Notes under the pieces: model-generated
Told to the model about the DNA's origin: nothing
Databases searched by the model: none
What the model saw: only the letters and a program-made list of their open reading frames with translations
Assembly: GCA_015143295.1 (NCBI GenBank)
Contig: CM026552.1
Span: 62,986,944 to 63,050,943, forward strand
DNA: 64,000 bases
Origin: Tetracentron sinense
Taxonomy: Eukaryota > Streptophyta > Magnoliopsida > Trochodendrales > Trochodendraceae
Reading direction: 5' to 3'
Shown here: positions 13,145 to 64,000 of the stretch, piece by piece
Position numbering within the stretch: the stretch's first letter is position 1
Layout of the letters: every line of letters starts with the position of its first letter
Program-made: the position numbers and the translations under genes

Positions 13145-13181
13145 ATCAAAATACAAAAAGGAACTCTCTAACCCTCTCCTC

Positions 13182-13322: not shown

Positions 13323-13331
13323 AAAAGTACG

Positions 13332-15256: not shown

Positions 15257-15352
15257 ACAAAAATTTCGTCCCCGAAATTTGGACAGTGCGTGCTTTACAA
15301 TTTAACAACTTAGCATAACAATTTGAAACAAAATTACAAGTCATACATAAAA

Positions 15353-18684: not shown

Positions 18685-18816
18685 CTGTGCGATTAAGTGA
18701 CTACTATTAGTAGATTTCAAACAACAAGCATCATACATAGGTAACCCTTAGTATAGAAACTCACAAAGCAAACCATAGAAATTTTACACAATTTAAATTC
18801 TAGAATTCGTGCGTAC
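18685..18816 (-). other. Predicted gag-pol intron of A (132 bp)
   Basis: On minus the boundaries read CAAG/GTACGC and CGCACAG/GCGC. The segment is AT-rich and has CTACTAAT-like and CTTAAT-like branch candidates near the 3' end. It carries an in-frame TAG nine codons in, which ends Gag when the segment is retained. Splicing joins codon 'G' of VQG to the pol frame (LLVNECLAR before the protease). Introns at the same place in B (44315-44460) and D (60777-60914) differ in sequence and length. Confidence 0.7.
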
Positions 18817-20053
18817 CTTGCACGACATCGTCGGATGCACGTGCGTCTCTCTCGGATAAGGCAAAGACTCGGCCCTGTGTGGCTGGGCGAGGAGGCCGGG
18901 TAGACTGTGAGGCCCTCGAAGCCTGAGAAGAGCTAGGCTGAGATGTCTGCCGAATCGGGGGCCTGCTCCCCGAAGACTGAGCTGGCATCAGACGTCGGGG
19001 ACAATCCCGAATCATGTGGCCCTGGTCGCCACAATGAAAACAGCCTCCTGTAGCCTTCCGACATTCCCCTGCTGGATGCCTCCTTCCACAAAGGGTGCAG
19101 ACATCATGTGAATAAGTGGGAGGAGTATAACCCGTAGCCTGAGTCACTGCGGGGCGAGGAGCATACGAGGTAGCCGGGCGAAAAGCCGGTGGAGAAAAAG
19201 GGCGGGGGGCCTGTGGTGCCGAGTACCTCCTCTGTGACTGAGCCAGCCCTGCGGACTGATAAGACATAGTCCTAGCTCTCTTCTCCCCTGAACTACTAGA
19301 CTGTCCCTTCTCTATTCCTCTTCTCTTAAAGAACTCTTCGGAATTAGACTCGGCCAACAATGCTTTGTCCACAACTTCTGAATACGTCTCATGTCGGAAC
19401 ATTGAGACACGATCCTTGAGGTAGGCCTTCAACCCCCTCTCGAATTTCCGGGCCTTCATAGCCTCGGTAGCTATCATGTGTGGAGCAAATCGGGATAGCT
19501 CTGAGAACTTGGCTTCGTAAGCCGCTACAGATATATTACCTTGCTCCAAGGTAATAAATTCAATTTCTTTCTTTTCTTTCATCCCAACCGGAAAGTATTT
19601 CTTGTAGAAAACGTCTAAGAATTCTCCCCATGTCCATTCTTGGCCTTGCCGGGTCAACTCTCGGGTCCGAAGTGCAGACTTCCACCAATGGTCGGCCTCG
19701 CCTTCAAGCATAAAGGCAGCCCATGTGACCCTCTCTACTTCCGTAGGTGCCAAAACCGAGAATATCTTCTCAAGTTGCCGAATCCAACCCTCGGCAATAA
19801 GTGGATCAATGCTTCCACAAAAAGTTGGAGGCCTCATCCTCCGGAAAGCTTCTATCCCGGCTTGGGCTCGATTAGGAGGAGCCGGTATAAGTGCCGCATT
19901 AGGCGGGGTGGCCGGTTGCCTTGCCGCCAACATAGCCAAGGTCTCGGCTATGGATGCGAATGCTTGGGCAAAATCGGGTTGATCATCACCCGATGGAGCA
20001 TCACCTCCATTACCCCTCGTGTTGTACCCGCGACCCCGGGTATTGCGTCTCAT
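18800..20053 (-). CDS. Gag of A
   Basis: Capsid/nucleocapsid protein that packages element RNA. ATG at 20053 (MRRNTRGRGY) is preferred over the upstream in-frame ATG at 20074, because D and B align from this Met. Arg/Gly-rich start, Ala/Pro linker, then the retrotransposon gag domain (EADHWWKSALRTRELTRQG through RFAPHM and FERGLKAYLKDRVS). The C-terminus has two zinc knuckles: a short CX2CX3HX4C (CTLCGRRHPAGEC) and a canonical CX2CX4HX4C (CFHCGDQGHMIRDC). The last residues (THEF) are encoded by the retained intron. Intact. Confidence 0.92.
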   Translation of the reverse strand: MRRNTRGRGYNTRGNGGDAPSGDDQPDFAQAFASIAETLAMLAARQPATPPNAALIPAPPNRAQAGIEAFRRMRPPTFCGSIDPLIAEGWIRQLEKIFSVLAPTEVERVTWAAFMLEGEADHWWKSALRTRELTRQGQEWTWGEFLDVFYKKYFPVGMKEKKEIEFITLEQGNISVAAYEAKFSELSRFAPHMIATEAMKARKFERGLKAYLKDRVSMFRHETYSEVVDKALLAESNSEEFFKRRGIEKGQSSSSGEKRARTMSYQSAGLAQSQRRYSAPQAPRPFSPPAFRPATSYAPRPAVTQATGYTPPTYSHDVCTLCGRRHPAGECRKATGGCFHCGDQGHMIRDCPRRLMPAQSSGSRPPIRQTSQPSSSQASRASQSTRPPRPATQGRVFALSERDARASDDVVQGTHEF

Positions 20054-20361
20054 GATTTCTCCTGAGAACGACAATACAACATGAGTCTAACTTGGATACG
20101 CATTTAGTACAATTTCGCAATTCACTTAATACATATTCATCAAGCACATTTAATAAGTACAACACAAATAATGTACACATGGTATATAACACAATAGCAT
20201 AACATACAATTCGTGTTCCTAGCGTAGGACTCTATGTTCGGTTGAAGTTCAACCCATTTTGACTAAGACTAACTTGTTAGTCTATACTTGGAATACAACT
20301 CTCTAGGTGATTCTAATACCTTGTTCAATCATCTAAGTGACCCTAGGGACTCTAATACCTA

Positions 20362-20375
20362 GGGCTCTGATACCA
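20362..20375 (-). other. Primer-binding site of A (initiator Met tRNA)
   Basis: TGGTATCAGAGCCC on minus, 4 nt inside the 5' LTR end; complementary to the 3' end of plant initiator methionine tRNA. Confidence 0.9.
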
Positions 20376-20379
20376 CTTC

Positions 20380-22722
20380 TGTCACGCCCCAAAATACCCC
20401 CTAGGAGTTAAGGGATACTTTAGAGGTAACTACGTGTACCTGCCAAACCATCCTGTAATGCAAGAGGCTAAACATAATATAATTCAATGAAAATCAGAGC
20501 GCGGAAACTAAACATAAGTGCGGAAGCATAATCCAACTTTTCTTTTCTTCTATAACTCCAAATAGTATTCCAAGTTAACATATACCAAAATACAATCAAA
20601 GTAAAGGTGGACATGCCCACCTATCAAAATACAAAAAGGAACTCTCTAACCCTCTCCTCTCAACAGTAGTCGAGGTATGGCCACACATCCAAGTCCCCAT
20701 CCTCCTGAGACTGCCATGGGATAGGTGGCTCCCTCTCCTCTACATACTCCTCCTCGACCCAAGGCTCGGGGTCGAGGACATCCACAGTACCTGCCGACAT
20801 AAAAGTACGGCTGAGCATGGAATACTCAGCGAGTACAAACTACTAGCTAACCATAACAATAGCGAAAGCATAACAACAGTGAGCAATACAAGATATTAAT
20901 TTAAAGCAATAGTGAAAGCATAAGATACATAGCCATATCTTGACATGCGTGTATGAATGCAAAAACCTCGGTAAAACTCATGTCTCGGAAACCCTTTTCG
21001 TGTCTCGGTCAAATCATGTATATGTGTCGTGTCTTGTCTTGTATTTCATGTCTTGATTTGTTCTTGACTTGTATACTTGTGAGCCAGAGGCTAGCACCCT
21101 TCCTTGGGCTACCAACCTCCTTGTCATGTTCTGGTTCCATTTCTCTTGTGAGCCAGAGGCTAGCACCCTTCCTTGGGCTACCAACCTCCTTGTCATGTTC
21201 TTGTTTCATTTCACTTGTGAGCCAGAGGCTAGCACCCTTCCTTGGGCTACCAACCTCCTTGTCATGTTCTTGATTCATTTCACTTGTGAGCTAGAGGCTA
21301 GCACCCTTCACTTGGGCTACCAACCTCCTTGTCATGTTTCATTTTCTTGTTTGCTTTATTATGCACAATTACTCTTGGAAAACCCAATTCATGCATGCAT
21401 GCGTGCTTGTGTGCTTGTCAATAGTGGTAATCATGATGACATACTTGAATGGGCGGATCACATGAATATGGCATTTCAATCCTTAACATAGTGGTATGAG
21501 AATTTAGGCAACATATAGCACATTTGAGCAATTTATCATTCCCAAGAAAATTTACACAATTTCTATTTCCATTTTCTTCATTAAGTCCGTTTATCCCTTG
21601 TTTAGTCATTTTATCAAACACACGGTGGGCCACATTTCTTAGTCCTTCCATTTCCCTTATTTAGTGCGTATTTTTCATCAAGACATCAAGGTACATTTGT
21701 TATTTGTAAAGTGCCCATCTTCCATTTTCCATTTCACACATCACACAACATCCATACGGCATCCAATCGCCTCAATCGACATCCCATCCACACATCCATA
21801 CCTTTTTCTTATCTTGTTTATATTTAGTGGAGATAATACATTTTATAAGGAAGTAAACATACTACCAAGAGTCACATTTCACAATAGAAAATCTAGACTA
21901 TTGCTAAAGAAAGTTAGTAGAGTGTACTAACCTTGAATCAAGGCTTGATCCTTGGTAGGGGCCTTGATTGAAGCTCCAACTTGAAAGATGAAGCCTTTGC
22001 TTGAAAGAAGCTTGAGTTGGGGGAGAAACCCCTTTCAAAAACGTGCTTGGGTTGCTGCCCTAGCTTGGAGAATGAGTCCCCACACGAGCTTGAGCCTTGA
22101 ACTTGAAGCAACTCGAGTTGGGGTGAGCTAGGGTTCTTAAACCCCTTTGATTTCTTCTCCAATGGAAAACCCTAGTTGCAAATCCCCTTCTCCTTTCTCT
22201 CTATCTCTCAAAATCCCTTAAGTTCTGTGAATGAAGCCCTAAAGGCTCGAGCAAGCCTTAAGGAGGAAGGGTTTAACCCCCAAAAGACGAAAAAGCCCTT
22301 AATGAAAATTCTGAAAAACACGAAGACCGAGCGATCGGTGGTTATGACCGATCGATCGGTTGCCTACCGAGCGATCGGTGTTTATGACCGATCGACCGGT
22401 CAAAAACTCACTCTCTGGAAAATTTCCCCATACAAAATTTCTGACCGCGCGATAGCTACCGATCGATCGGTTATGGACCGATCGATCGCTGACTGGACCG
22501 AGCGATCGGTTCTCTATATGTCTGGACTGTTTTGACCATATCTTTTGACTCGCTCGTCGGATTTCGACGATTCAACTTGCGTTGGGTTCGTCTTTCGAAA
22601 ACGCACATTTCTGACGTTTCGGAATTTCCGATTTCTTCCTTATTTATTAATTAGACTACAAAAACGGCCAATTGGCTACGAAGGTGCTATTCATTAAGGA
22701 TGAAAAAGTCCGGGGTGCTACA
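20380..22722 (-). repeat. 5' LTR of A
   Basis: 2343 bp, matching the 3' LTR at offset 7478 except for one inserted A near 22436. As the upstream LTR it would drive transcription of the element. It repeats the 69-bp block (21074-21340), the GATCGATC array (22326-22510), hairpin 1 (20810-20830) and hairpin 2 (20605-20622). Confidence 0.95.
20660..20800 (-). CDS. LTR micro-ORF, 46 codons (A, 5' LTR)
   Basis: Identical to 13182-13322. In the 5' LTR this copy would lie in the untranslated leader if transcription starts upstream of hairpin 1, and would then act as an upstream ORF for gag. Confidence 0.45.
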   Translation of the reverse strand: MSAGTVDVLDPEPWVEEEYVEEREPPIPWQSQEDGDLDVWPYLDYC

Positions 22723-22727
22723 GTCGT
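22723..22727. repeat. Right target-site duplication of A (GTCGT)
   Basis: Matches 12897-12901 exactly. Confidence 0.95.
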
Positions 22728-33479: not shown

Positions 33480-36037
33480 TGTGAGCGCGGATTTCTGTGA
33501 CACTCACTAGGATGTGTACCTATACCCTCACGGGTGTGAAAGGGTTTTGATTAAGAGTCGTCACCTATTCATTCAGAAGGGATAAGTCCCCCGAGTTTGG
33601 ATAAGATCTTGGTCAGTGAGCGAGATCAGGGTAAGGGGTTCAATTAAGTCCGGGGAAGGTGTTAGGCACCCCGACACTTCCGTTTTACAATGGTTCTGTA
33701 CTCCCAGGTTTAAGCCAATTAAAGTCAATCTTGTTAAAATGCCAGAGTGTTTAAGTTAACACTAATTAAAGAAAAAGGGAAAGCTAACTAGGGCCGAACC
33801 CGGGTTGGGTTGCCTACGTACTCACAGGGTGAGATCAGACCGAGCGTAGTTCTAGCACGTGAGCCTGTGCCGAGGCTAGGGGCGTGTGTGTGTGCACTAA
33901 GGGTAGCTAACAGGTCTAGTCTGGTAGACTAGGATTTGTTTGACCGAGGAAGGTCAAGTGCAAGGTATAAGCCCGGTAGGCTTAGGGGTAGTCCGGTAGA
34001 CTAGGGCGGAGTCTGGCTAGGGTTAGGGTTGCTAACCGGGGTTAGGCCAAACTAACTATGGTGAGAGTTGCTAACCACAGTTAAGGGGAAATGGGATTTA
34101 GCCCGGTAGGCTAAGGGGAGGCCCAGTAGGTCGAAGATAAATCCGGTAGACTTGGTTTTTAGGCCCGATAGGCCGTAAACCGAAAGTAACTGCAATTAGG
34201 TTTGCTAACTGGAGTTACAGGGGATCTAACTATGGTTAGGGTTTCTAACCAGGGTTAAGAAGGGACCCAAATTCAGTTTTATGGTCTAGGTTAATTTTTA
34301 GGATTTTTTAGATTATTTTTCCAAATTTTCAGAAGTTAAAGGGTGCTTAACCACGGTTAAATATTAACCGAAGGTACATTTAACTATGGTTAAGGTATGG
34401 TTAAGTCTGAAGTGGGTCCAGGGGCTAGGCAAGGCCTAAAGTGGCCTCCTACCAAGACTAGGCCCCTGTAAAAACCCAAAATTGAAAAACAGTTAATCTC
34501 CGTAATAGGATTACCAACATTTAGAACAGTGTTTTCAACTGAGGTTTGGACACTATTTAACTAGGGTTAGGGTGTAACCCAGGATGGACTGAGTTCATGG
34601 GGGCTAAGAGGGGAGTCCAGGGAAGAGTTCCAGCATTGTGTGGGCCCCAGGGGGTGCCTAGAGTGGGCCCCACAATGTTTCAAAGTTGTTGTACCTGCAA
34701 GTGTATATTAGCGGTAGATAGTCTACAGCCAATACTAAAATAGGCAAAATAATTATTGGCGATTGAAGGATTACTGCCAATATGCACAGTGCTCTTTTTC
34801 ATGGATTTAACCATGGTTAGGCTTAACCCAAGCACTTGGAACAACCAGATGTGACCAAGGGAGATAAGAGGGGTTCATTTTGGGCCCTGGACATAGACCA
34901 GGGCCCACCCAAGTAGGCCAAACATGCTTGAATCAGTAGAGGCCAGGAATAGCATTACTAAGATTACCGTCATTCCTGGTTTTGCTCAAAACCAATTTTT
35001 TGCCCACATGGGCTGTGCACAGAGGTAACCAGGGGTTCTCTCATGATCTGAGGGATCACCAGAAGGTCTATAGTGGTCTGCAATGCTTAATGGAGTGGTA
35101 TACACCCTTAGGGGTTCACCACACCTATGAACAAGGTGGGTGAACAACCTGTTGGGTTTGCACTAAGGCTAGAAATAGTGAATAAGCATAAAAAAGTCCC
35201 CTGAAGATGACCAAGGGCTCACATGATCGATATATTGAAAAAAAAGAGGGTAGGGGAGTCCCCACCCTGATACTCTGTTCACTTGCCGAGAGTGGGGGGC
35301 TGCAACAGTGGGGTGGTGCTACAATAATGAGTCGTAGCAGCTGGGGGAGATTGAGGTAGATCCAGGGGAGTCTTTGGATCACGACCAAGGTGTTTGAAGA
35401 GGCTGAGGGAGAGGATTTCAAACAGGGCTTAACCTATGAGATTTTTCAGGATTTGCCGACCGTTTACAGTGGAGGGGAGTTGGGATTTTATAGGGAAAAC
35501 TCTAGGGACCTAGGAGGGATTAAGGAGAAGGGCTAAGAGGGGGTTGGACCTGGTGGAGATCGAGTGAGAGGCCTGAAGGGAGAGTTTGAGGTGAAGGGTG
35601 GAGTGTGCAGGGCGTTTGCAGTGTTGCAAACCCGAAATCAGACAATGGTGGTAGATGGTCTACCGCCCTTATCAAAACAGGCCAAATACTAATTGGCGGT
35701 AGTCCATCTACCGACAATAAGGAAATTTTAACAGAATAGGCCTGGCCCATACGCACTCAGGCTTGGGAGTTTATGCTTAGGGTTTTTGGGCCTTGTGGGC
35801 CCATTTTAAGGATTCAAGCCCTAGGAGCCATGGACTTTTAGGGGTTAAGCCCTAAGGGCTTTAGGGCTAGGTTAGGGCTTCAGCTAGGGTCACCTAGGGC
35901 TAGGGTTTTTGACACATGGGTTTTACACTAGGGTTTAACAAGGGTTAAACTAGGGTTTAGGGAACTTGGCAGGGGGTAACTATGGTCAAAAGTTTTTAAC
36001 CATGACTAGACAGGGGTGTAAAAATTGGGTGCTTACA
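33480..36037 (-). repeat. 5' LTR of H
   Basis: 2558 bp, starting TGTAAGCACCCAATTTTT at 36037 and ending GCGCTCACA at 33480. Pairs with 7836-10368. Carries the same TAACC/GGTTA dyads (34020-34260) and GGCGGTAG inverted repeats (about 34710, 34755, 35650 and 35695). Confidence 0.88.
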
Positions 36038-40989: not shown

Positions 40990-43900
40990 TCATTCAAACA
41001 ATTCCGGGTACTTCGCTTTGACTTCGGCCTCTCGCTCCCATGTAGCCTCTTCTCGAGCGTGATGTTGCCACTGCACAAGAACCAATGGGATAGTTTTATT
41101 TCGAAGGACTTGATCACTCCGATCCAATATGTGAACCGGTTTCTCAACTAAAGTGAGATCCTCCCGAATTTCCAACGGCTCCAAGTCTATGACATGCGAA
41201 GGATCTGCAATGTACTTCTGAAGCATAGACACATGGAAAACGTTATGAACCGCGGCCATGTGAGGCAGAAGAGCTACCTTGTAAGCAACTTCACCAACTC
41301 GCATGATGATCTCGAACGGGCCAACATATCGAGGACTAAGCTTGCCTCGCCTGCCAAATCTCATAACTCCTTTGCTAGGAGATACCTTCACAAAGACTTG
41401 ATCCCCAACCTGGAATTCCAAGTCCCTACGGCGTGTGTCCGCATAGCTCTTTTGACGATCTTGAGAGGCTTTCAACCGATCCCGGATGATCTTGACTATA
41501 CTCACAGTTTGCTCAATCAACTCCGGACCTAACACCTTTCTTTCTCCTACCTCATCCCAATAGAGAGGGGACCTGCAGCTACGCCCATATAAGGCCTCAA
41601 ATGGTGCCATTTGGATACTCGCCTGATAGCTATTGTTATAGGCGAATTCAACCAAAGGCAAGTGTTCTTCCCAACTGCCCTTGAAATCTAACATACATGC
41701 CCGAAGCATGTCTTCAATGACTTGGTTCACCCTCTCAGTTTGTCCACCCATCTATGGATGAAAAGCGGTGCTGAAATCGAGTCGGGAACCCATAATTTCC
41801 TGAAAACACTTCCAGAACCTGGACGTGAATCTCGGATCCCGATCTAACACAATACTAACTGGCACCCCGTGTAGCCTAACCACTTCCTTGATATATAGTG
41901 CGGCCAACTGACTAGAGTTGAATGTAGTACGGTATGGCAAGAAGTGCGCGAACTTTGTTAAACGATCCACAACAATCCATATCGCATTTGAGCCCCTTGC
42001 CGTCTTTGGCAAGCCAACTATGAAGTCCATGGATATGTTCTCCCATTTCCACTCGGGAATAGGAAGAGACTGCAATAGACCGGCAGGTCTCAAGTGCTCT
42101 GCCTTCACCTGTTGGCACACTAAGCACCGTGCTACATACTCCACAATCTCCCTCTTCATATTCCGCCACAAATAGTGATTCTTGAGATTCTGGTACATCT
42201 TTGTACCCCCAGGATGCATTGTGTACTTCGAACGATGTGCTTCATCCATGATCTCTCGTCGGAGATCTGCATTGGCTGGAACACACAGCCTTCCTTTAAA
42301 CGTAATAGCACCTCGACTAGTGAGAGAAAAGTCTTCACTACCCTTGGCAACTTCCTTGTCCCGATAAGCCAATAATTCAGCATCCGTGGCTTGGTATTCT
42401 TGGATCAAATCTATAATGTATGGCAGAACCGTGACATTTTCCAAAACAGGACCGCGACCTGTATCATTCACACTGATGTCCAGATTTTCCAAATCCTCCA
42501 ATAATCTCCATTTGTGCACTAACATATGAGCCAACAAACCTGGAGGTCTTCTACTCAAGGCATCCGCTACAATGTTTGCTTTGCCCGGGTGGTATTGGAT
42601 GGTGCAGTCATAGTCTTTCAAAAATTTCATCCAACGCCGTTGCCTTAGATTCAGCTCCTATTGGGAAAAGAGATACATGAGACTCTTGTGATCCGTGAAC
42701 ACATAGAACTCCACCCCATAAAGGTAATGGCGCCAAATCTTGAGTGCAAACACGACCGCCGCAAGCTCCAAGTCGTGCGTGGGATAATTCTTTTCATGCT
42801 CTTTCAATTGCCTCGATGCATAGGCAAGGACTTTCTTGTGTTGCATGAGCACAATCCCAAGTCCAACATGCGAGGCATCACTGTACACCTCATAACCACC
42901 ATGTCCAGATGGCATTGTAAGGACGGGGGCCGTGGTAAGCCGCTTTTTCAGTTCCGTGAAACTGATCTCACACTTATCGTTCCACACGAATTTTGCATTC
43001 TTTCTTGTCAAATAAGTGAGCGGTGCTGCAAGGCTGAAGAAACCCTCTATGAATCTCCTGTAGTAGTCTGCCAACCCAAGAAAGCTGCGTATTTCTATGA
43101 CACTCTTGGGCCTCGCCCAACTCATGACTGCCTCTATCTTCTTCGGATCTACCAAAATGCCTTCCGCGGATACAACGTGGCCTAGGAATGCCACCTCTTC
43201 CAACCAAAACTCACACTTACTGAGTTTGGCGTACAGCTTGTGCTCTCTCAGCATTTCCAAAGCAAGACGAAGGTCTCGCATGTGATCTTCCCGAGTTTGG
43301 GAATACACCAAGATATCGTCGACAAACATGATCACGCATCGATCCAAGTATGGCCGAAACACCCGGTTCCTTAAATCCATAAAGGCTGCCAGTGCATTTG
43401 TGAGACCAAAGGGCATCACCAAGAACTCGTAGTGTCTGTATCGAGTCTGAAAAGTAGTTTTGGGCACATCCTCGGCCTTGATCTTCAACTGGTGGTAACC
43501 GGACCGAAGATCAATCTTAGAGAAAAATTTTTCTCCCTTCAACTGATCGAACAAGTCATCAATCCTAGGTAATGGGTACCTATTCTTTATAGTGACCTTG
43601 TTCAACTGTCGGTAATCAATGCACAGCCGCATCGAACCATCCTTCTTCTTGACAAACAAAATCGGGGCACCCCACGGTGAGGCACTTGGTCGAATGAAAC
43701 CAAGATCTTGCAATTCTTCCAACTGAGTCTTTAACTCCTTGAGTTCGATCAGGGTCATTCTATACGGAGCCCTGAAAATAGGAGTTGTGTCTGGTGCAAG
43801 CTCGATCACAAACTCAATCTCCCTGTCTGGAGGCAATCCTGGTAATTCCTCTGGAAATACATCCAGAATTCACTCACGACTGGAATAGTCGAAGAGTCCT

Positions 43901-44314
43901 TTGCCTCGGGGTTCGCTAGGCTCAACGCTGCAAAACGGGCAATATCTCTACTTCTCAACCCCCGAAAATGAAATGGCTTGCCTTCCACTGGCCGGAAGAG
44001 TACCATCTTTTCAAAACAAGCCACATGCCCATGATGTGTTGCTAACCAATCCATTCCCAATATAACATCAAAGTCTTGAAATCCGAGGATGATTATATCA
44101 ACCACCAATTCGTGGCTCCCCACTTGAACCACACTGTTTCTATACACTTTATCCGCCAATATTGTCTTGCCGAGAGGAGTAGAAATGGCTAACTCCGGTT
44201 CCAACTGGCTAGGCTCTGAGGAAAAACCTTGAGAGAAACTCGGCGATATGAATGAATGAGTAGACCCGGTGTCGATCAATACTCGAGCCAAACATTCATT
44301 GACTAGTAAGGTTC
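40990..44314 (-). pseudogene. Pol of B, inactivated
   Basis: Starts at the proposed acceptor (GAACCTTACTAGTCAATG) and encodes the same PR-RT-RH-INT-tail order as A, including [22 protein letters not shown], the HHCC finger and the [13 protein letters not shown] tail. Defects: about 1 bp lost near 43865 (end of protease linker), TAG at 42660-42658 (RNase H, Lys codon) and TAG at 41754-41752 (integrase, before the catalytic Glu). The catalytic motifs remain recognisable, so inactivation is fairly recent. Confidence 0.9.
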
Positions 44315-44460
44315 CTAAAATTTTAGCTAGCTAAGTCAATCCATGCATCAACAGCGTATAAATATCGGTATATATACATATAATCATGCCATATATGTAC
44401 ACAATCAAATAATACATAACAAAAATTTTAAGGATAATTAAATACACTATAACTGCGTAC
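44315..44460 (-). other. Predicted gag-pol intron of B (146 bp)
   Basis: Boundaries CAAG/GTACGC and AATTTTAG/GAAC on minus. The length is not a multiple of three, so gag and pol lie in different frames in the DNA, yet splicing joins them exactly as in A and D (VQG then LLVNECLAR). Retention gives a TAG after GTQL. Confidence 0.72.
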
Positions 44461-45706
44461 CTTGCACTACATTGTCAGATGCAAGTGCATCACCCTCTGT
44501 CAAGGCAAAAACTCGCCCCTGGTTCGCCTGGCGAGGTGGAGGTGCAGAACGTGCAGGCTGAGAGGACGCCTGGTATGATCCTGCTGGGCGTGCTGGGGGC
44601 CTAATCCCCTGAGACTGGCCTGGTAAATGCTGAGTAGGGCAATCCCTAATCATATGGCCCTGGCGACCGCAATGATAACATCCACCCGATGCTCTTCGGC
44701 AATCTCCTACCGGATGCCTTCGGCCGCATGAAGTGCAGACCTCATATGTGTAAGTCAGAGGGGCCGGAGGTGGAGCATACCTCGCCACCTGAGGTGCAAT
44801 TGGTCATGGGGCCGGAAGAGACTGAGGTCGCGGTGCCTGACGCACGTACGACCGTGGAACTGGAGGCGCATAAAATGGCCTCATAGGTGGTGTTGGCCAC
44901 GCATACTGATAAGGGTCGGTACGAGCCCGCCTATCCGGAGGTGCTGAGCTACTAGATTGGCCTCTCGCCAATTCCCTCTTCTTGGACACGGTCTCTGAAT
45001 TGGCCTCAACCAATAAGGCCTTGTCTACAACCTCAGGGTAGGTAGCATGTCTGAAAACCGACACCTTCTCCATGATAACGTCCTTGAGCCCTTGCTCAAA
45101 CCTTCTTGCCTTCATTGCCTCGGTAGCAACCATGTGAGGCGCAAATCTAGAAAGCTCCGAGTTAGCCTCATAAGCGGCCACAATCATCGAACCTTGCTCT
45201 AGGTTGATGAATTCTCTCTCTTTCTTTTCCCATGCTCCAATCAGAAAATACTTCTTATAAAAAGTATCCTTGAACTCATCCCAAGTCCAAGGTTGACCCT
45301 GCATGGTCAAATCTCGCGTCCTCAATGCGGACAACCACCAATGGTGGGCTTCGCCCTCTAGCATGAAAAAAGTCCATGCTACTTTCTCTTCCTCTGTCGG
45401 AGAGAGAACCGCAAATATCTTCTCCACTTGCAGGATCCAAGCCTCCGCAACAAGAGGGTCCACACTCTCATGGAATGATGGAGGCCTAAATCTCCTGAAT
45501 GCCTCAACCCCAGCTGCACGATGTACTGGAGTCGTAGGCGGTAGAGTAGGTGTTGCTGACGACGTTATAGTTTGCCGAGCCGCCAGGATGGCAAGAGTCT
45601 CAGCAATAAAGCCTAAGACCTAAGAGAGGTCCGGCTACTCGACCTCATCTCGAGAAGAAGACGAAGCTCTTGTATGTGGTCCACGACCCCGTGTGCCCCC
45701 TCTCAT
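44461..45706 (-). pseudogene. Gag of B, inactivated
   Basis: ATG 45706-45704 (MRGGTRGRG). TAG at 45637-45635 and 45622-45620 near the N-terminus and TGA at 44806-44804 before the zinc knuckles disrupt it. The gag domain (EAHHWWLSALRTRDL...ELSRFAPHM) and both knuckles (CTSCGRRHPVGDC, CYHCGRQGHMIRDC) are still visible. Confidence 0.88.
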
Positions 45707-46061: not shown

Positions 46062-46854
46062 TGTCGCGCCCCAAAACCCACCCTAGGAGTTAGAGTGAAT
46101 CTTGGACGACTCATCATGACTTGCTTGACCAAAATAACCTACAAAAGACCTGGAGCATATACAATAGAGGACAATAATAGCGGAAACATAAACTATAAAG
46201 CACAGCGGAAGACTTAACCAAAAACCTCTATGTTTATATACATATACATGATCCAAGTTTATACACAAAAGAAGGTGCGGACAGGCCCGCCAAAATACAT
46301 GAATATATCTCTCTCAACTCACCCACAGCTATCCACTCAGAATCTACCACCACCTAATAATAACCCTCGGCCAGAGGTTCCTCCACAGGCTCCTCAATAT
46401 ACTCCTCCAACACCCATGGGCCAGGAGCACAGACATCAAATGGAGCAGTAGCTCCCTTAGAACCTGCCGATATAAACGTACGGCTGAGCATGGAATACTC
46501 AGCATGTACCAAATGCTAACCAACAGTCATAGTACAACAACAATGTTATATATATATATAAAGCAGGAAACAATTCCGATCATAACAGGAAAGTAGAGCA
46601 GTTTATATTCATGCTTACATTTCATAAAAGCCGATAAAACCCTTAAAAACATCGTGCACTTGACTTGACTCAAATCGCCCCTTTCATGTTTGAAAACTTG
46701 TCATGTCTACCTTGTCGTATCATGTCGTGTTATGCGTATCATGCGTGTCATGCCATGTCATGCTCACTTGGAAAATAAACTACTTGTGAGGGAAGGGAAA
46801 CCCTTCTTCCTAAATGCATCATACTTGTTATGCCATGTATCATGCCATGTATCA
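46062..46854 (-). repeat. Truncated 5' LTR of B
   Basis: Matches the first 790 bp or so of 38582-40889, including hairpin 1 (46483-46503), the micro-ORF frame (46354-46473) and hairpin 2 (46277-46290). Homology ends at GCCATGTATCA, where C's RT starts. Some 1.5 kb of the LTR, including U3, is missing. Confidence 0.88.
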
Positions 46855-49314
46855 CCAGTTGAAGATTAAGGTGGAAGATGTTCCCAAAACCGCTTTCAGG
46901 ACTCGGTATGGACACTACGAGTTCTTGGTGATGCCTTTTGGACTCACGAACGCGCCGGCAGCCTTCATGGATTTGATGAACCGGGTGTTCCGGCCATATC
47001 TTGATAGGTGCGTGATTGTATTTGTTGATGACATTTTGGTCTATTCCCAGACACGGGAAGATCACACACGCGACCTATGCCTTGCTTTGGAAATGCTAAG
47101 CGAGCACAAGCTATGCGCCAAGCTTAGCAAGTGTGATTTTTGGTTGGAAGAGGTGGCATTCCTAGGCCACGTTGTTTCTGCAGAAGGTATCTCGGTAGAT
47201 CCGAAGAAGATAGAAGCAGTTATGAGTTGGGCGAGGCCCAAAAGTGTCACGGAGATACGCAGCTTCCTTGGGTTGGCAGGCTACTACAGGAGATTCGTAG
47301 AGGGTTTCTCTAGCCTTGCAGCACCGCTCACTTACCTGACAAGGAAGAACGCCAAGTTTGTATGGAGTGATAAATGCGAGATCAGTTTCACGGAACTGAA
47401 GAAGAGGCTTACTACAGCCCCGGTCCTTACTGTGCCATCTAGACCTTTTGGGTATGAGGTGTATAGTGATGCCTCACACGTTGGACTTGGGTGTGTACTC
47501 ATGCAGCACAAGAAAGTCATTGCCTACGCATCAAGGCAGTGGAAGGAGCATGAGAAGAATTATCCCACGCACGACTTGGAACTTGCGGCGGTCGTGTTTG
47601 CACTTAAGATTTGGCGTCATTACCTTTATGGGGTGGAGTTCTATGTATTTACCGATCACAAGAGTCTCAAGTACCTCTTTTCCCAAAAGGAGCTGAATCT
47701 AAGGCAAAGGCGTTGGATGGAATTTCTGAAGGACTATGATTTTACCATTCAATACCACCCGGGTAAAGCGAATGTTGTGGCTGATGCTTTGAGTAGAAGA
47801 CCTCAAGGGTTGTTAGCACATATGTTGATTCAAGAATGGAAGCTACTAGAAGATTTGGCAAATCTGGACATCAGTGTGAATGACTCTGTCCGCGGTCCTA
47901 CCTTGGCAAATGTTACGGTTCGGTCGTACATTATAGATTTGATCCAAGAATATCAAACCATGGATGCTGAATTGTTGGCTTATCGGGACAAGGAAGTTGC
48001 TAAGGGTAGTGTGGACTTCTCTCTCACTAGTCGGGGTGCTATCACATTCAAGGGAAGACTGTGCGTCCCAGCCAATGCAGATCTTCGAAGAGAGATTTTG
48101 GATGAAGCACACCGTGCGAAGTACACAGTGCATCCAGGGGGTACAAAGATGTACCGGAACCTCAAGAGTCACTTTTGATGGCGGAGTATGAAGAGGGATG
48201 TTGCAGAATATGTGGCACGATGCTTGGTGTGCCAACAGGTGAAAGCAGAACACATGCGACCCGTCGGTCTATTGCATTCCCTTCCGATTCCCGAGTGGAA
48301 ATGGGAGAACATATCCATGGATTTCATAGTTGGCTTGCCAAAGACGGCAAGGGGCTCAGATGCGATATGGGTAGTAGTGGATCGTTTGACAAAGTCCGCT
48401 CATTTCTTACCATCAAGGAAGTAGTTAGATTGCACGGAGTGCCTGTTAGTATTGTGTCGGATCGGGATCCAAGATTCACGTCAAGATTTTGGAAAAGTTT
48501 CGAGGAGGCTATGGATTCCCGACTTGATTTCAGCACCGCTTTTCATCCACAGACGGATGGACAAACCGAGAGAGTGAACCAAGTCGTTGAAGACATGCTT
48601 CGGGCTTGTATGTTGGATTTCAGAGGCAGTTGGGAAGAGCACTTGCCTTTGGTTGAATTTACCTATAATAACAGCTATCAGGCAAGTATTCAAATGGCAC
48701 CATTTGAGGCCTTGTATGGGCGAAGTTGTAGGTCTCCTCTCTATTGGGATGAGGTAGGAGAAAGGAAAGTACTTGGTTCGGAGTTGATTGAGCAAACTGC
48801 AAACACAGTTAAGATCATTCGGGATCGATTGAAAACCGCTCAAGATCGCCAGAAAAGTTATGCGGACACGCGCCGTAGGGACTTGGAATTTCAAGTAGGG
48901 GATCAAGTGTTTGTGAAAGTATCTCCTAGCAAAGGGATCATGAGATTTGGAAAGCGAGGCAAGCTCAGTCCTCGGTATGTTGGGCCTTTTGAGATTATCA
49001 CACGGGTTGGTGAAGTTGCTTATCGAGTAGCTCTTCCACCTCACATGGCCGCAGTTCACAACGTCTTCCATGTGTCTATGCTTCGGAAGTACATTGCGGA
49101 TCCTTCGCATGTCATGGACTTGGAACCGTTGGAGATTCGAGAGGACCTCACCTTGATTGAAAAGCCGGTTCAGATTTTGGATCGAAGAGATCAGGTGCTT
49201 CGCAACAAGACAATCCCTTTGGTTCTTGTGCAATGGCAACACCATGCTCGGGAAGAAGCTACATGGGAGCGTAAAGCCGAAGTCAAAGCAAAGTACCCAG
49301 AATTATTTGAATGA
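46850..49314 (+). pseudogene. Pol of C (RT C-terminal half, RNase H, integrase), inactivated
   Basis: Begins at [16 protein letters not shown] and contains [10 protein letters not shown], RNase H ([30 protein letters not shown]), the HHCC finger, integrase catalytic motifs and the [13 protein letters not shown] tail. Two lesions: TGG to TGA at 48176-48178 in the zinc finger, and a 43-bp deletion near 48410 relative to A, bounded by a CAT microhomology, which shifts frame. The first 36 nt of the nominal ORF (46814-46849) are LTR sequence from B. Confidence 0.88.
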
Positions 49315-55413: not shown

Positions 55414-56010
55414 CTTGGTTGAATTAGGGTTCAACTAGGGTTTAATCAGGTTTAACCATGGCTAACTGGGGTTTAATTAGGATTAACTAGGGTTTAACCA
55501 GGGTTTTTGGGTAGAGGTTCGACTAAGGTTAAACCAGGGTTTAACTAGGGTTTAACTAGAGTTAACTAGGGCTGAACCAAGGTTTAACTAGGGTTTAACC
55601 AGGGTTTCACTAGGGTTAACTGGGGTTTAACTAGGGTTTAACCAGGGTTTAACTAGGGTTAACTAGGTTTTAACTAGGGTTTAACCAGGGTTTAACTAGG
55701 GTTAACTGGGTTTAACTAGGGTTTAACCAGGGTTTAACTGAGGTTTAACTAGGGTTTAACTAGAGTTAACTAGGGCTTAACCAGGGTTTACCTAGGGTTT
55801 AACTAAGGTTAACTGGGGTTTAACTAGAATTAATTGGGGTTCAATCAGGGTTTAACTAGGATTTAGTTAAAATTAACTAGGGTATAATCAGGGTTTAACT
55901 AGGGTTAACTAGGGCTTAACCAGGATTTAACTAGGGTTAACTGGGGTTTAATCAGGATTAACTAGGGTTTAACCTGGGTTTAATCAGGGTTTTGGGCAGA
56001 GGTTCGACTA
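55414..56010. repeat. Degenerate GGTTTAAC(C/T)AGGGTTTAACTAGGG array in LTR of I
   Basis: Dozens of AACTAGGGTTTAACCAGGG-like units, 10-24 bp apart, with many mutations. Sparser versions occur in both H LTRs (8340-8620, 34020-34260). The units embed telo-box-like TAGGGTTT but do not form a TTTAGGG telomere array. Confidence 0.75.
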
Positions 56011-57329: not shown

Positions 57330-57551
57330 TGTAGCACCCCGGACTTTTTCATCATTAATGAATAGCACCTTCATAGCTAATTGGCCGTTTTCATAGTTTT
57401 CGTAGTCTAATTAATAAATAAGGGAGAAATCGGAAATTCCGAAACGTCAGAAATGTTCGTTTTCGAAAGACGGATCCAACGCAAGTTGAATCGTCGAAAT
57501 CCGACAAGCGAGTAAAAAGATATGGTCAAAACAGTCCGGACATCACAGAGC

Positions 57552-57736
57552 ACCGATCGCTCGGTCATTACCTGCGATCGATCGGTCCACTACCGATCGC
57601 TCGATGGCTATCGCACGGTTAACTTTTTTGTATGGGGAAAAATTCCAGAGAGTGTGTTTTTGACCGATCTCTCGGTCATAACACCGATCGATCGGTAAGC
57701 CACCGATCGCTCGGTCCATAGCACCGATCGATCGGT
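57552..57736. repeat. GATCGATC dyad array in LTR D
   Basis: Alternating ACCGATCGATCGGT and ACCGATCGCTCGGT copies, directly upstream of a TATA-like box (57791). Confidence 0.85.
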
Positions 57737-57790
57737 CATACGCAGTTTTTCTTCATTATGGGTGTTTAAGACTTTAAACACCACCCCTTG

Positions 57791-57801
57791 CCTATAAAAG
57801 G
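57791..57801 (+). promoter_or_regulatory. Candidate TATA box of D
   Basis: CTATAAAAGGG about 55 bp after the last GATCGATC dyad. Typical plant TATA sequence; the start site would lie near 57825-57835. Inferred from motif and position only. Confidence 0.45.
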
Positions 57802-58754
57802 GCTGGGTTCGTGCCTTAGGGTTTCACAAACCCTTTGTGCATTGTTTTTGAGGGATTTGAAGAAGAGAAGGAGGAGAGGACTTGGTGATCGTTCAAGCTT
57901 GCGGAAGATCAAGTTCTTCCTTTCCATTTGGTGTTTTCCAACCAAGAACTCACTGTTCTTGCTTGTTCCAGCCATTGGGAGTCAAACTCATTGATTTCTC
58001 CTAGGTAGATACACTCTACTACAATCTTGCAATCCTACTAGTTAATAAATATGATTCTTCTTATCTATGCCCTATCTATATGTATTGATTTTATGTATGA
58101 AAAAGGTGTGATTACATACTTGGATGAAGGTTACTATTATGATGCACTCTAAGTGTTTGATGAAATACCTCTAAGGGATTCTATGCTTAAATATGATGAT
58201 TTCTCTTATTAAGTGCATATGCTCCCATGTCTCGCATAAACCGATGTTTTCCATGGATTTCTCAAAGTACAAACAAGGGTTTTTTCCACGAAAAGACGAA
58301 TAATGAATGATTCTAAGTAACTCTATGATTTCTCTAAGATCGTTTCACAAGCTCTAAGGATCATACCATGCTCACAAGAAAACTCTATGATAATGCTCTA
58401 AGATCGTCTCACAAGCTCCACGGATCACAATAAATGCTCTAAGATCTCTAAGGTTATGCTCTATGGAAATGCTCTACGGTATTGCTCTATGCTCTATGTC
58501 TCTACGGATCACAATGACTCTAAGTAACTCCATGAACTCACAAGAACTCATAAGGCTATGATTATCGATTGACTCACACGGTTACAGTTTTGGTTTCGAA
58601 TATTATCTCACATATGTTTTCACGGTTTCCATGATTTAAGGATTGTTCGGATTTCATTCTCCATGTCTTGTATGCTCCATGCCTAACCGCTTTATTGTTC
58701 TTAGTTTGTATACACTGAGTATTCCATGCTCAGTCGATATTGTTATGATCGGCA

Positions 58755-58889
58755 GGTGCTCGGGTTCCATTCGATTTGTGTGGCGACGAACCTTGGGTCG
58801 AGGAAGAGTACCGTGACCCGGAGCCTTCCATGGATCACTATCATGACGATGGTGCTCTAGATAGGAGTCGTGACTTCGATTTCTGTTGA
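58755..58889 (+). CDS. LTR micro-ORF frame (D; no ATG in frame)
   Basis: Open from GGT 58755, just after an ATCGGCAG/GT junction, to TGA 58887-58889. Encodes VPFDLC, EPWVEEEY and an acidic end DFDFC. A one-base insertion relative to the other LTRs removes the ATGTCG start from this frame, so here it would need an upstream exon or another start. Confidence 0.35.
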   Translation, partial: GARVPFDLCGDEPWVEEEYRDPEPSMDHYHDDGALDRSRDFDFC

Positions 58890-59197
58890 TCGACCGACTT
58901 AGAACTTGTGTCATTTTGTTATGTGAGTGTGGGGTTTGTCCACTCCACTTTTGGGTTTCTCACATATGTATACTTGTTGGTTCTTACTTGAGCCAAGCTA
59001 TAGGAGTATTCATTTTGCTTCCGCTATGTTTAGTATTTTATTTTCCGCTGTGCATTGTATTTCGTTTCCGTTATGTATATTCAGGTACTCTGACAGGTTT
59101 CCACGTGTGCCTTATGTATCATACTGGAGGTATGGTACGGCGGTCACGAGTCAACTTACCCTTAACTCCTAGGGGGTATTTTGGGTCGCGACAGACT

Positions 59198-59209
59198 TGG
59201 TATCAGAGC
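59198..59209 (+). other. Primer-binding site of D
   Basis: TGGTATCAGAGC, 4 nt after the LTR; initiator-Met type. Confidence 0.92.
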
Positions 59210-59560
59210 TAGTTATGTCTAACGACAGACTTAGTTAGGTCACTCAGGCTTGGCCTAAGCGGAAGTAATTCCTATGAGTTGAACTTAGAACTCAGAAGGA
59301 CTCAGTTGTCTTAGGCTTGTTACCACGACATGACCGGTATCAAGTGAATCTTTAGGTCAGTATAGGATCCGAGATTGATGTGGTCCTATGCGAGGTTCTA
59401 GTATAGGCTCTAAAGTATAATTATATGATGATGTATATATACCTCGATGTATACTATGTGCGGTATAGCATTTCATGATTATTGAATTGCTATATGATAT
59501 GTGAGGTTTGGTATCCAGTTAGACTCATGTTTTGCCAAATTGATGTCAGGATTCGATATC

Positions 59561-60820
59561 ATGAGACGTGGCAATCGGGGTCGAGGTTACCATACTCGGA
59601 GGGCCGAGAGTGAAGTTCCGAGAGAAGAGGAACCGTTGTACTTCACGAATGCGATGGACTCCATAGCCGAGACTTTGGCATTGTTGGCAGCAAGGCCTAT
59701 GCCTACCCCACCGTCCACGCCTGTACCTACACCGGTGCATCACACCGCGGGGCTCGAAGCTTTTAGGAGACTGCGGCCTCCTACATTTTATGGCACTCTG
59801 GACCCCATGGTGGCCGAGTCTTGGATTATGCAACTGGAGAAGACCTTCCGGGCTCTCCGTTGTACCGATGAGCAAAGGGTAGAATGGGCTTCCTTCGTGA
59901 TGGAAGGTGAAGCCGAACACTGGTGGAGAGCTGCCCAAAGGCAGAGAGATGTTGCTAAGGCAGGTGTGCCCTGGACTTGGGCGGAGTTCTTAGAGACCTT
60001 CAGGGAACAGTACTTTCCCAGGTTTATTCGGGAACAAAAGGCGAGAGAGTTTATGCTTTTGGAGCAAGGGTCGATGAGCGTAGCCGAGTATGAGGCTAAG
60101 TTCACCGAGTTGTCCAGGTTTGCTCCGCACTTGGTGGCTACTGAAGACCTACAGGTCAGGAAGTTTGAGATGGGCTTGAAGGCTTTCATCCGAGATCGGG
60201 TGTCCATTCTCCAGGTAGAGTCTTGGAGAGAGATAGTAGGAAAGGCGAAGATCGCTGAAAAGAATGCGGAAGACTTTGTGAGAAGAAGAGACAGTGGCTT
60301 CGGGAAGAACATGTCTCGGGGTCAGACGAGTAGTTCTTCAGAGAAGAGGACTAGGACTGCACCGTACCAGTTCTCCCAGCCGATTTCGGCTCAGAGACCT
60401 TCTTTTGCGCCTCAGGCACCGCATCCTACGGCATCGCAAGCTACGAGGGTTATGCCTCCGGCTTCCTCCGCATCGCAGACATTTGAGGAGTGCGCCGTAT
60501 GTGGTCGTCGGCATAAGACAGGAGATTGCCGAAGAATGTCAGGTGGATGCTTCCACTGTGGCGAGGTGGGCCATATGATTCGAGATTGCCCGCGCAAGCA
60601 GTCACAGTCTGGATCACAGGGAGTTCGGCCTCCAGGCAGGCAGAATTCACTTCAGGGGTCTTCATCTCAGGCCTCTAGATCCTTGCAGCCTACCCAGCAG
60701 CCTCGTCAGGCAAACCAGGGCAGAGTCTTTGCCATGACTGATAGAGACGCACAAGCATCTGATGATGTTGTGCAAGGTACGCGCGAACTAGTCTTTGTCA
60801 AAGTTCTAATATTGCCATGA
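59561..60820 (+). CDS. Gag of D
   Basis: ATG 59561 (MRRGNRGRGYHTRR), aligned with the starts in A and B; an upstream in-frame ATG at 59501 is less likely. Gag domain EAEHWWRAAQRQRDVAKAG to ELSRFAPHLV and FEMGLKAFIRDRVS; knuckles CAVCGRRHKTGDC and CFHCGEVGHMIRDC. The unspliced product ends with 14 intron-coded residues after VQG at TGA 60818-60820. Exon sequence proper ends at 60776. Intact. Confidence 0.92.
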   Translation: MRRGNRGRGYHTRRAESEVPREEEPLYFTNAMDSIAETLALLAARPMPTPPSTPVPTPVHHTAGLEAFRRLRPPTFYGTLDPMVAESWIMQLEKTFRALRCTDEQRVEWASFVMEGEAEHWWRAAQRQRDVAKAGVPWTWAEFLETFREQYFPRFIREQKAREFMLLEQGSMSVAEYEAKFTELSRFAPHLVATEDLQVRKFEMGLKAFIRDRVSILQVESWREIVGKAKIAEKNAEDFVRRRDSGFGKNMSRGQTSSSSEKRTRTAPYQFSQPISAQRPSFAPQAPHPTASQATRVMPPASSASQTFEECAVCGRRHKTGDCRRMSGGCFHCGEVGHMIRDCPRKQSQSGSQGVRPPGRQNSLQGSSSQASRSLQPTQQPRQANQGRVFAMTDRDAQASDDVVQGTRELVFVKVLILP

Positions 60821-60914
60821 TATATTCGTATCCATATATGTCCTATGTGGTGTTTTGCGATGTTTGTATCTATATGTACAGTTGTGTTATAACTGGGATG
60901 ATTCAAATTCTCAG
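60777..60914 (+). other. Predicted gag-pol intron of D (138 bp)
   Basis: CAAG/GTACGC at the donor and AATTCTCAG/GTTC at the acceptor, AT-rich, with several CTAAT/TTATAAC-like branch candidates. Splicing joins VQG to a frame reading LLVNECLAR and then the protease. Confidence 0.72.
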
Positions 60915-63900
60915 GTTCGTTGCTCGTAAATGAATGTTTGGCAAGAGTGTTGATAGACACAGGATCCACTCACTCGTTCGTTTCACCAAGCTTTGCCAAA
61001 GGCTTTACGTCCGAGCCAAGCAAGCTACCTAGGGAGTTGTCCATTTCAACTCCATTGGGAAAATCTATTGAGACAGATAAAGTGTATCCGGATAGTGTTG
61101 TACAAGTCATGCAGCACGAGTTGCCAGTCGACTTGATCCTTCTGGGAATTCAGGATTGGGATTTCGATGTCATCCTAGGTATGGATTGGCTCTCAACTCA
61201 CCATGGACACGTGGCGTGTTTCGAGAAGGTGGTGCATTTTAAACCCGTGGGGTTAAAGCCGTTTCATTTCAGGGGACTTCAGAGGAGAGACATTTCCCGC
61301 TTTGCAGCTCTTAGTCTCGAGGGTGTAGAAGTGCGAGACTCCACACCCATTCCAGTGGTATGTGAGTATATGGATGTTTTTCCGGAAACCTTGCCGGGAT
61401 TGCCTCCCGATCGTGCAATCGAGTTTGCGATTGAGCTAGCTCCAGGCACAGTTCCGATTTCGAGAGCTCCGTATAGGATGGCCCCTATTGAGCTTAAGGA
61501 GTTAAAAGAGCAGTTAGAAGAATTGCAAGGCCTTGGTTTTATCCGGCCAAGTGTTTCACCTTGGGGAGCTCCGGTTCTCTTCGTGAAGAAGAAGGATGGA
61601 TCAATGCGTATGTGTATTGATTACAGGCAATTGAACAAGGTCACGATCAAGAATCGTTATCCATTGCCTCGGATAGACGACTTGTTTGACCAATTAAAGG
61701 GTGCGCAGTTTTTCTCCAAGATTGACCTTCGATCTGGTTATCATCAGTTGAAGATCAAGAAAGAGGACATTCCGAAGACAGCATTCCGAACTCGATACGG
61801 TCATTACGAGTTTTTGGTCATGTCTTTTGGACTGACTAACGCACCGGCAGCATTCATGGGTTTGATGAATCGGGTGTTCAGATCGTCTCTCGATCAATGT
61901 GTGATCGTGTTCGTAGATGATATCCTTGTGTATTCACAGTCACAGGAGGATCACACGAGAGATCTCCGTCTGGTCTTGCAGACACTTCGAGAGCATAGTC
62001 TGTATGCTAAGTTGAGCAAGTGCGAGTTCTGGCTGAACAAGGTGTCTTTTCTTGGACACGTGGTATCTGCTGAAGGTATTTCAGTTGATCCTGCAAAGAT
62101 TGAAGCGGTGATGAATTGGGAAAGGCCGAAGAGTGTCACCGAGATTCGTAGTTTCCTCGGGTTGGCAGGGTATTACAGAAGGTTTGTGGAAGGATTTTCA
62201 AGTTTAGCAGCTCCGCTTACCTATCTCACACGGAAGAACACGAGGTTCACTTGGAGTGATAAGTGCGAGGCTAGTTTCTTGGAGTTGAGAAAGAAGCTTA
62301 CTTCGGCTCCTGTTCTTACAGTTCCATCTGGGAGCGGTGGTTTCGAAGTCTATAGTGATGCTTCACTAGTGGGACTTGGATGTGTTTTGATGCAGCATAA
62401 ACAGGTGGTCGCCTATGCTTCTCGTCAGCTGAAGGAGCATGAGCAAAACTACCCCACACATGACTTAGAGCTCGCTGCAGTCATCTTTGCACTGAAACTT
62501 TGGCGTCACTACCTCTACGGAGAAGAGTTCGTGGTGTTCACAGACCACAAGAGCTTGAAGTATCTTTTCCTCCAGAAGGAGTTGAATATGAGGCAGCGTC
62601 GTTGGATGGAGTTCATGAAGGACTACGACTGTTCCATCCAGTACCACCCGGGTAAGGCTAACGTGGTAGCCGATGCTCTTAGCAGAAAACCTTACGGAGT
62701 TATGGCTCAATTGAGAGTGCAAGAGTGGAAGTTATTATATGATATGTGTCATTTGGACACTACTCTCAGGCATGTCACCTATGGGCCGATAATGTCCAAT
62801 GTGGTGGTTAGGCCACAGATCCTGAGCCAGATCAAGGAGTTACAGAATTCAGATGTGGAGTTGCTTGCTTACCGAGACAAGTCGGTGAGTAACGGCAATC
62901 AGGAGTTCGCTTTAAATGGTGATGGTGCTATCACATTTAAGGGCAGGTTGTGTGTCCCCGCCGACACAGTTTTGAGGGATGAAATTTTGAATGAAGCTCA
63001 CCGATCAAAGTACACGGTACATCCGGGAGGTACTAAAATGTACCAGAATCTCAAGAAGCACTACTGGTGGCGAAACATGAAGAGGGAAGTCGCTGAGTAC
63101 GTCGCCAGATGTTTGATTTGCCAGCAGGTAAAAGCCGAGCATCAAAGGCCGGCAGGTCTTTTGCAGTCCCTTCCTATTCCGGAGTGGAAATGGGAGAACA
63201 TCTCGATGGATTTCATTGTGGGTTTGCCGCGAACGGCGAAGGGCTCCGATGCTATTTGGGTGATTGTGGACAGGTTGACTAAGTCTGCACATTTTATTCC
63301 GTACCGAACTACTTTTAATGCAAATCAGTTGGTAGCCCTATATGTTAAGGAGGTGGTTCGACTGCACGGTGTGCCAGTTTCTATCGTGTCTGATCGAGAT
63401 CCTCGGTTTACTTCCAGGTTTTGGAAAACCTTCCAGGATGCTATGGGTTCTCGTTTAGAATTCAGTACCGCCTTCCATCCTCAGACCGATGGACAAACGG
63501 AGAGGGTGAATCAGGTAGTGGAGGATATGCTCCGAGCTTGTATGCTGGATTTTCAGGGTAGTTGGGAGGAACAGTTACCGTTGGTTGAGTTTGCCTACAA
63601 CAATAGCTATCAGGCAAGCATTCAGATGGCACCTTTTGAAGCTCTGTATGGTCGGAGTTGTCGATCACCGCTATACTGGGATGAAGTTGGTGAGAGGAAG
63701 ATTCTTGGTCCTGAGTTGATAGAGCGGACCGCAGAAAGGGTCAAAATTATCCGGGAGCGATTGAAAAGTGCTCAGGATAGGCAGAAGAGCTATGCGGATG
63801 TACGCCGCAGAGATTTAGAGTTCCGAGTTGGGGATCGGGTCTTTGTGAAGATTTCGCCGAGTCGGGGAATCATGCGATTCGGGAAGAAGGGAAAGCTCAG

Positions 63901-64000
63901 TCCTAGGTACGTGGGACCATTTGAGATCGTCACAAGGGTTGGTGAGGTTGCTTACAGGGTAGCACTACCGCCTCACATGGCAGCGGTCCATAATGTATTT
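60915..64000 (+). CDS. Pol of D (PR-RT-RH-INT), open to window edge
   Basis: I read this frame codon by codon from the acceptor to 64000 and found no stop. Landmarks: protease DTG at 60956; [12 protein letters not shown] and FVDD (aspartates at 61916-61921); RNase H YSDAS, FTDHK and VADALSR; integrase HHCC finger; Asp 63209, Asp 63392 and Glu 63500 (D-35-E); GPF module near 63917. Two unusual RT residues: MSFGL for the usual MPFGL, and FMGLMN where A and C have FMDLMN. The chromodomain-like tail lies beyond the window. It is the enzyme set of a probably intact element. Confidence 0.92.

Follow-up and report, generated by a model that had tools for sequence, protein, structure and literature searches.

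Plant long terminal repeat (LTR) retrotransposons are generally intron-free according to a 2025 review, which counts Ogre and EVADE among the exceptions (PMC12786077). A survey of plant LTR retrotransposons places the Ogre intron between GAG-PROT and the reverse transcriptase (RT), reports a tRNA-Met primer for most chromoviruses and for no non-chromoviruses, and, in its passages on a gap between two frames, names Bianca and Ogre, not Tekay (PMC6317226). Bongo3, a beet Tekay element, is introduced in its report as chosen for an intact open reading frame (PMC3605345). In searches of open-licence papers, we found no earlier report of an intron between gag and protease in a chromovirus. Here we analyzed a 64,000-nucleotide stretch of the Tetracentron sinense genome (hereafter, the window) in which three LTR retrotransposons, elements A, B, and D, carry a short segment at exactly this border. 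We put the probability at roughly 90% that the segment represents a spliceosomal intron that a Tekay/Del-like chromovirus ancestor probably gained a single time and that has been kept since, with unspliced RNA giving Gag and spliced RNA giving Gag-Pol.

Predicted intron anatomy conserved across three families

The segment was found in A, B, and D at precisely the coordinates and lengths originally predicted. The predicted introns and their exons in the window are as follows.

18685–18816, minus strand: element A predicted intron, 132 bp, GTACGC...GCACAG, CTAAT at -23
18817–20053, minus strand: element A gag exon, open
15353–18684, minus strand: element A pol exon, open, with a chromodomain-like stretch at its end
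44315–44460, minus strand: element B predicted intron, 146 bp (2 mod 3), GTACGC...TTTTAG, TTGAC at -22
40990–45619, minus strand: decayed gag and pol exons of element B, whose open frames are fragmented
60777–60914, plus strand: element D predicted intron, 138 bp, GTACGC...TCTCAG, interrupting a Gly codon at phase 1 (VQ G/x LLVNE)
59543–60776, plus strand: element D gag exon, with Retrotrans_gag, Ty3_capsid, and zf-CCHC; the unspliced reading stops at 60820
60915–64000, plus strand: element D pol exon, with protease, RT, RNase H, and integrase; 1109 amino acids (aa) open from the first whole codon, continuing into locus L031

The constant edges described earlier were borne out, as the segment starts with GTACGC after CAAG in all three elements and ends in AG before a G (CACAG in A, TTTAG in B, and CTCAG in D); both borders read AG/G. 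Removal of the segment joins gag and pol in one frame in A, B, and D, again as claimed, through a single Gly codon split at phase 1. The supporting argument from frame holds in part: the 146 bp of B are not a multiple of three, whereas the segments of A and D are and thus carry no information on this point. The frame-informative introns are those of B and of a further copy, L035 (142 bp). Each retained segment has the early stop that had been predicted, the gag-frame reading ending with THEF (A), TQL (B), or TRELVFVKVLILP (D) before the stop codon, which falls 3–13 codons past the split Gly in all eight junctions compared. T makes up 0.39–0.44 of the segments, against 0.19–0.21 of the 150 bp that precede them in exon 1 and 0.28–0.31 of the 150 bp that follow in exon 2. 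A branch-point-like YTRAY motif at the usual distance (~18–40 nt before the acceptor) stands at -22 or -23 in all five A/B-type introns and in none of the three D-type ones. The chance that all three copies have GT...AG and regain the Gly codon in a single phase was estimated by base shuffling at ~7.5e-12, a rough value given that the families share descent.

A, B, and D had been treated as copies of one family; by their synonymous divergence they are separate families, not close copies. In pairwise comparisons, the proportion of differing synonymous sites (pS) was 0.66–0.69 over the last 300 nt of gag and 0.77–0.90 over the first 900 nt of pol, the synonymous divergence (dS) was 1.6–1.9 or undefined, and the proportion of differing nonsynonymous sites (pN) was 0.13–0.38 across the gag end and pol start comparisons, with the values of B inflated by its broken pol and the A–D comparison unaffected. 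Between copies, the exons agree at 46–49 of the final 60 nt of exon 1 and at 45–46 of the initial 60 nt of exon 2. The intron bodies are as unalike as originally observed (identity at 4–10 of the 24 positions from +7 to +30), and shuffled sequences reached the observed score 51 times in 200 for A–B, 6 in 200 for A–D, and 8 in 200 for B–D; a faint signal of shared ancestry may persist in the A–D and B–D pairs. Position, phase, and donor have been kept despite near-saturated synonymous sites, which, as judged from these alignments, is the behavior of an old intron.

Further copies were sought in the 1.16-Gb assembly that contains the window. An 801-bp query spanning the intron gave 40 scored D-like matches with 99–100% identity over its length, and the 138-bp GT..AG segment was present in 30 of 30 D-family loci fetched, a query of this kind being unable to favor intronless copies. 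In these loci, gag is open over 426 aa in 29 cases (the exception, L002, has a stop 199 codons upstream) and pol is open to the end of the locus in 24 (merely 274 aa in L002). In an independent sample of 193 kb, including the window, all eight paired gag–pol junctions carry the intron at one position and phase. Their lengths (132, 132, 138, 138, 138, 142, 146, and 150 bp) represent 0, 1, and 2 mod 3, and all join one frame. L035 has a gag open over 416 aa and a pol open over at least 482 aa, whose frames differ because the intron of 142 bp is 1 mod 3. One gag end (L033) and one pol start (L043) were unpaired in the 193 kb, and two further partial gags in L033 stop short of the junction. Also in L033 (position 795, minus strand), the donor GGTACGC is followed by an intron that seems to be broken ~90 bp in by unrelated sequence, with no family pol start at the locus. 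No junction was detected in L032, which adjoins D, or in a further 40 kb beside three other copies (L037–L040).

Exact absence of the segment in members of the three families

Across the genome, 50 sites match exactly a degenerate pattern in which exon 1 runs directly into exon 2 where splicing is predicted (22 B-type, 18 D-type, and 10 A-type by exon-2 wording); the reversed pattern, used as control, matches nowhere. A pattern for the start of exon 2 alone, able to detect either form, matches at 4,488 sites (reversed control, 0). The directly joined fraction is therefore ~1.1% of exon-2 starts, a lower bound for intronless copies since the pattern demands an exact GTGCAAG. Nine joined copies were fetched, three per type and all from the plus strand of the list. 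All nine are base-exact: the match to exon 1 runs through its final base, that to exon 2 begins at its initial base, and a search with four intron sequences found no trace of any of them in these copies. The D-type copies are 96.6–98.4% identical to D, the A-type copies 86.7–91.7% to A, and the B-type copies 83–92% to B or L035. They group accordingly, i.e., D-type with the D family, A-type with A, and B-type with B, L035, and L036. For L049 (D-type) and L050 (A-type), the fetched sequence reaches far enough upstream to show a match to the leader and the LTR end as well, and these two look like LTR copies. The pol match of L057 stops after ~210 bp, and several of the nine have stops near the junction. 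Some intronless junctions lie in pairs 4–8 kb apart (G000:C7:27045526 and 27049911; G000:C1265:24853 and 32551; G000:C9:23871899 and 23879137), perhaps as tandem or segmental duplicates.

The original reading of the segment as an intron gains support from these 50 exact joins in A-, B-, and D-type elements, as all nine fetched copies lack the intron alone. Regarded as natural cDNA of spliced RNA, the joins make it very likely that splicing at the gag–protease site is real. If the shared intron is ancestral, it would have been lost at least three times, and a fourth loss is suggested by L052, which sits with intron-bearing D copies and away from L049 and L053 in an exon-1 tree judged on topology alone.

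The segment is also missing from most homologous proteins. We examined 145 homologues from two protein searches, the first contributing its best 120 of 4138, and a third search (best 120 of 7992) brought the listed proteins to 265 in all. The original prediction had named, as the pattern that would speak against an intron, segment-free homologues that have a slippery site and whose gag and pol differ in frame. Instead, the gag and pol end pieces are in one frame and exactly two residues apart in 77 of the 82 homologues that match both under stricter thresholds (89 of 107 at a looser threshold), and those of A, B, and D show the same spacing once the segment is discounted. The exceptions are P0001, P0068, P0089, P0102, and P0143, with P0102 looking like an aligner register slip. 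Some of the homologues are gene models and possibly themselves spliced, and the 1504 aa of P0093 are encoded on a contig of 4607 nt, which leaves no room for an intron of such size. The protease domain appears to be split by the segment, because the RVP_2 (protease) match of pol alone begins at profile position 26. The residues LLVNEC were found in none of the 265 listed proteins. One relative on a short public contig, P0122, ends in VVQGT plus 10 residues unlike the pol start; this retained-intron-like reading is the sole such case among the 265.

Structure, age, and lineage of the elements

The remaining parts of the elements in the window are listed here (TSD, target site duplication).

20380–22722, minus strand: element A 5' LTR, 2343 bp, TSD GTCGT at 22723–22727 and 12897–12901
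12902–15243, minus strand: element A 3' LTR, 2342 bp, with zero substitutions and one 1-bp indel relative to the 5' LTR
57330–59193, plus strand: element D 5' LTR, TSD TATAT
59198–59209, plus strand: element D primer binding site, TGGTATCAGAGC
46849–49314, plus strand: element C, a partial pol of the same group without the gag–protease junction, hence uninformative on the intron

Element A (12902–22722, minus strand) is a complete LTR retrotransposon: gag and pol are open, and both LTRs, a 5-bp TSD, a purine tract, and a primer site of the tRNA-Met type are present. At a substitution rate of 1.3e-8 per site per year, the zero change in 2342 bp of its LTRs suggests insertion less than roughly 50,000 years ago. 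As A is complete and its LTRs are free of substitutions, the intron-bearing form moved recently. Both LTRs of A contain a 69-bp tandem repeat of 3.8 copies (13597–13860 and 21075–21338). Element D is young, with open gag and pol like A, and its 3' LTR, outside the window at L031:3839–5705, differs from the 5' LTR by 1 mismatch and 3 gaps. Just downstream of D is a further D-family LTR (L031:7512–9152; 96.7% identical) with no gag in the adjoining L032, possibly a solo LTR. The sequence TGGTATCAGAGC stands downstream of the 5' LTR in both A and D, and we take the primer binding site of D to be of the tRNA-iMet type.

A Pfam scan of A and D detected gag, zinc knuckle, protease, RT, RNase H, and integrase, with the integrase core match below the curated cut-off; the Chromo match in A (E 2.8e-4, 21.2 bits) is likewise under its curated value of 25.1. 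In an RT tree of 103 sequences, A, B, and D fall in one clade (support 0.998); the set has no named Tekay reference, and the clade name Tekay/Del is our assumption from domain order, primer site, and features known for the group. Scans of viral contigs found no relative.

The window has other repeats. Two direct repeats of 2.5 kb (7838–10367 and 33482–36036; 89.7% identical) may be either two related insertions or the LTR pair of another, older element. A degenerate short-repeat array of the GGTTTAAC type, somewhat like a telomere repeat, occupies 55417–55992, and an open frame at 2662–3582 resembles a Ty1/copia gag with a CCHC knuckle, as judged from its reading.

Proposed mechanism, alternatives, and known systems

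In the mechanism that we propose, translation of unspliced RNA would end within those few (3–13) codons past the split Gly and yield Gag alone, and the same RNA would be the usual template for reverse transcription, which would be why most copies keep the intron. Spliced RNA would have one frame restored and yield Gag-Pol, and its occasional reverse transcription would give rise to the intronless copies. Given that intron-bearing copies appear to be dominant, with very young ones among them, reverse transcription must usually use unspliced RNA. From the anatomy we infer the spliceosome as the agent, partial splicing, and separate protein products, and a Gag to Gag-Pol ratio set by splicing versus retention would fit it; a moderate donor and D-type introns without a strict branch-point match would suit partial splicing. 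A stronger version, to which we give even odds, makes splicing the only switch of the group, with unspliced RNA as genome and Gag message, spliced RNA as Gag-Pol message, and selection keeping the intron. Copies of spliced RNA would then be dead ends because they cannot make Gag alone, a status suggested by their scarcity (50 of 4,488 exon-2 starts).

Several points weigh against the intron reading. Scored with a splice-donor matrix, the donor comes 5th among 283 GT sites in A and 8th among 308 in D, which is good and not excellent, and strict YTRAY at branch-point distance was found in none of the three D-type introns. Two copies have altered splice sites, with the acceptor TCTAAG instead of TCTCAG in L046 and the donor GTAGGC instead of GTACGC in L036. 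The joined-pattern search detects exact losses only and leaves imprecise ones uncounted, and the intron-bearing majority among the 4,488 starts rests on samples. In sunflower, Tekay, the largest group there, is absent from the expressed set as given in the report (PMC7730604); expression of such elements may be rare, and tissue with transcripts perhaps hard to find. The AG/G at both borders could also produce an identical join through DNA deletion between the short repeats (AGG...AGG), with no splicing involved. Such a deletion would have had to create the same base-exact join in three families with unlike introns, in which other 3-bp repeat pairs must abound, and we consider it very improbable as the source of the intronless copies.

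Gag-Pol could instead be made from unspliced RNA by recoding (frameshift or readthrough) or re-initiation, with the segment as a linker. Translational recoding is known in other LTR elements, and A has a TTTAAAT heptamer 19 bases into its segment. This in-register heptamer falls after the gag stop, however, and the 120 nt around the border have no slippery heptamer in D and no in-register one in B. The three frames of the segment contain 3, 2, and 6 stops in A, 2, 1, and 8 in B, and 2, 0, and 3 in D, whose single open frame is in register with neither gag nor pol and would need two shifts. Re-initiation would have to use a first in-frame Met at residue 65–89 of pol, 51–75 residues past the catalytic DTG, with none before it. 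The base-exact absence in 50 copies would be left unexplained as well, and recoding, rejected after these checks of stops, slippery heptamers, and start codons, is scarcely credible. The one-frame, segment-free homologues would be expected if decaying elements had long ago acquired the segment as an insertion and the functional or ancestral copies were those without it. This is already wrong for A and D, which are young, complete, and open with the segment, and it fits neither the open frames of the 30 D-family loci nor the intronless copies, which group within or beside each of the three intron-bearing families and make up about 1% of exon-2 starts; we find it equally hard to credit. Less far-fetched, and still unlikely, is a real intron without a regulatory role, whose bearers persist merely through transcripts that leave the nucleus unspliced. 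The unspliced tail is unlike between copies and hence not selected as protein, as would be expected in that case. Yet the intron-bearing copies appear far commoner, unspliced RNA must then reach the cytoplasm, where it encodes Gag, and Ogre is described as partly spliced (PMC6317226).

Introns should tend to vanish when a retrotransposon copies itself through RNA, and this one has been kept through near-saturating synonymous divergence. The exact intron-free copies of three families in the same genome form a natural record of spliced versus unspliced template use, and how plant Ty3/gypsy elements make Gag in excess of Pol becomes testable through read counts. For annotation, gag and pol frames parted by stops need not mean broken elements.

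Among described systems, the elements resemble Tekay/Del chromoviruses in domain order (GAG-PR-RT-RH-INT), a chromodomain-like end, the tRNA-Met primer site, long LTRs, and their nearest protein relatives, and differ in that most usable homologues have one continuous frame. The likeness to Bianca (Ty1/copia) covers the gap alone, Bianca having two frames with a gap that averages 172 bp (PMC6317226); it belongs to the other superfamily, and the survey's account does not call its gap an intron. The short-GAG RNAs of EVADE and BARE (Ty1/copia) are similar in that splicing separates Gag from Gag-Pol, with the opposite logic as the review presents it: there, spliced RNA gives Gag and full-length RNA Gag-Pol, whereas here spliced RNA would give Gag-Pol (PMC12786077). 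In Ogre (Tat, Ty3/gypsy), likewise a plant LTR retrotransposon, an intron is described that separates two frames and whose removal from some of the transcripts joins the polyprotein (PMC6317226), as is proposed here. Unlike Ogre, with its GAG-PROT/RT gap, Tat lineage, and non-Met tRNA, the present elements have an intron of 132–150 bp before the protease, a tRNA-Met-type primer site, and a chromodomain-type lineage. The partly spliced Ogre is the precedent, from which the present elements differ in their chromovirus lineage and in the position of the intron between gag and protease.
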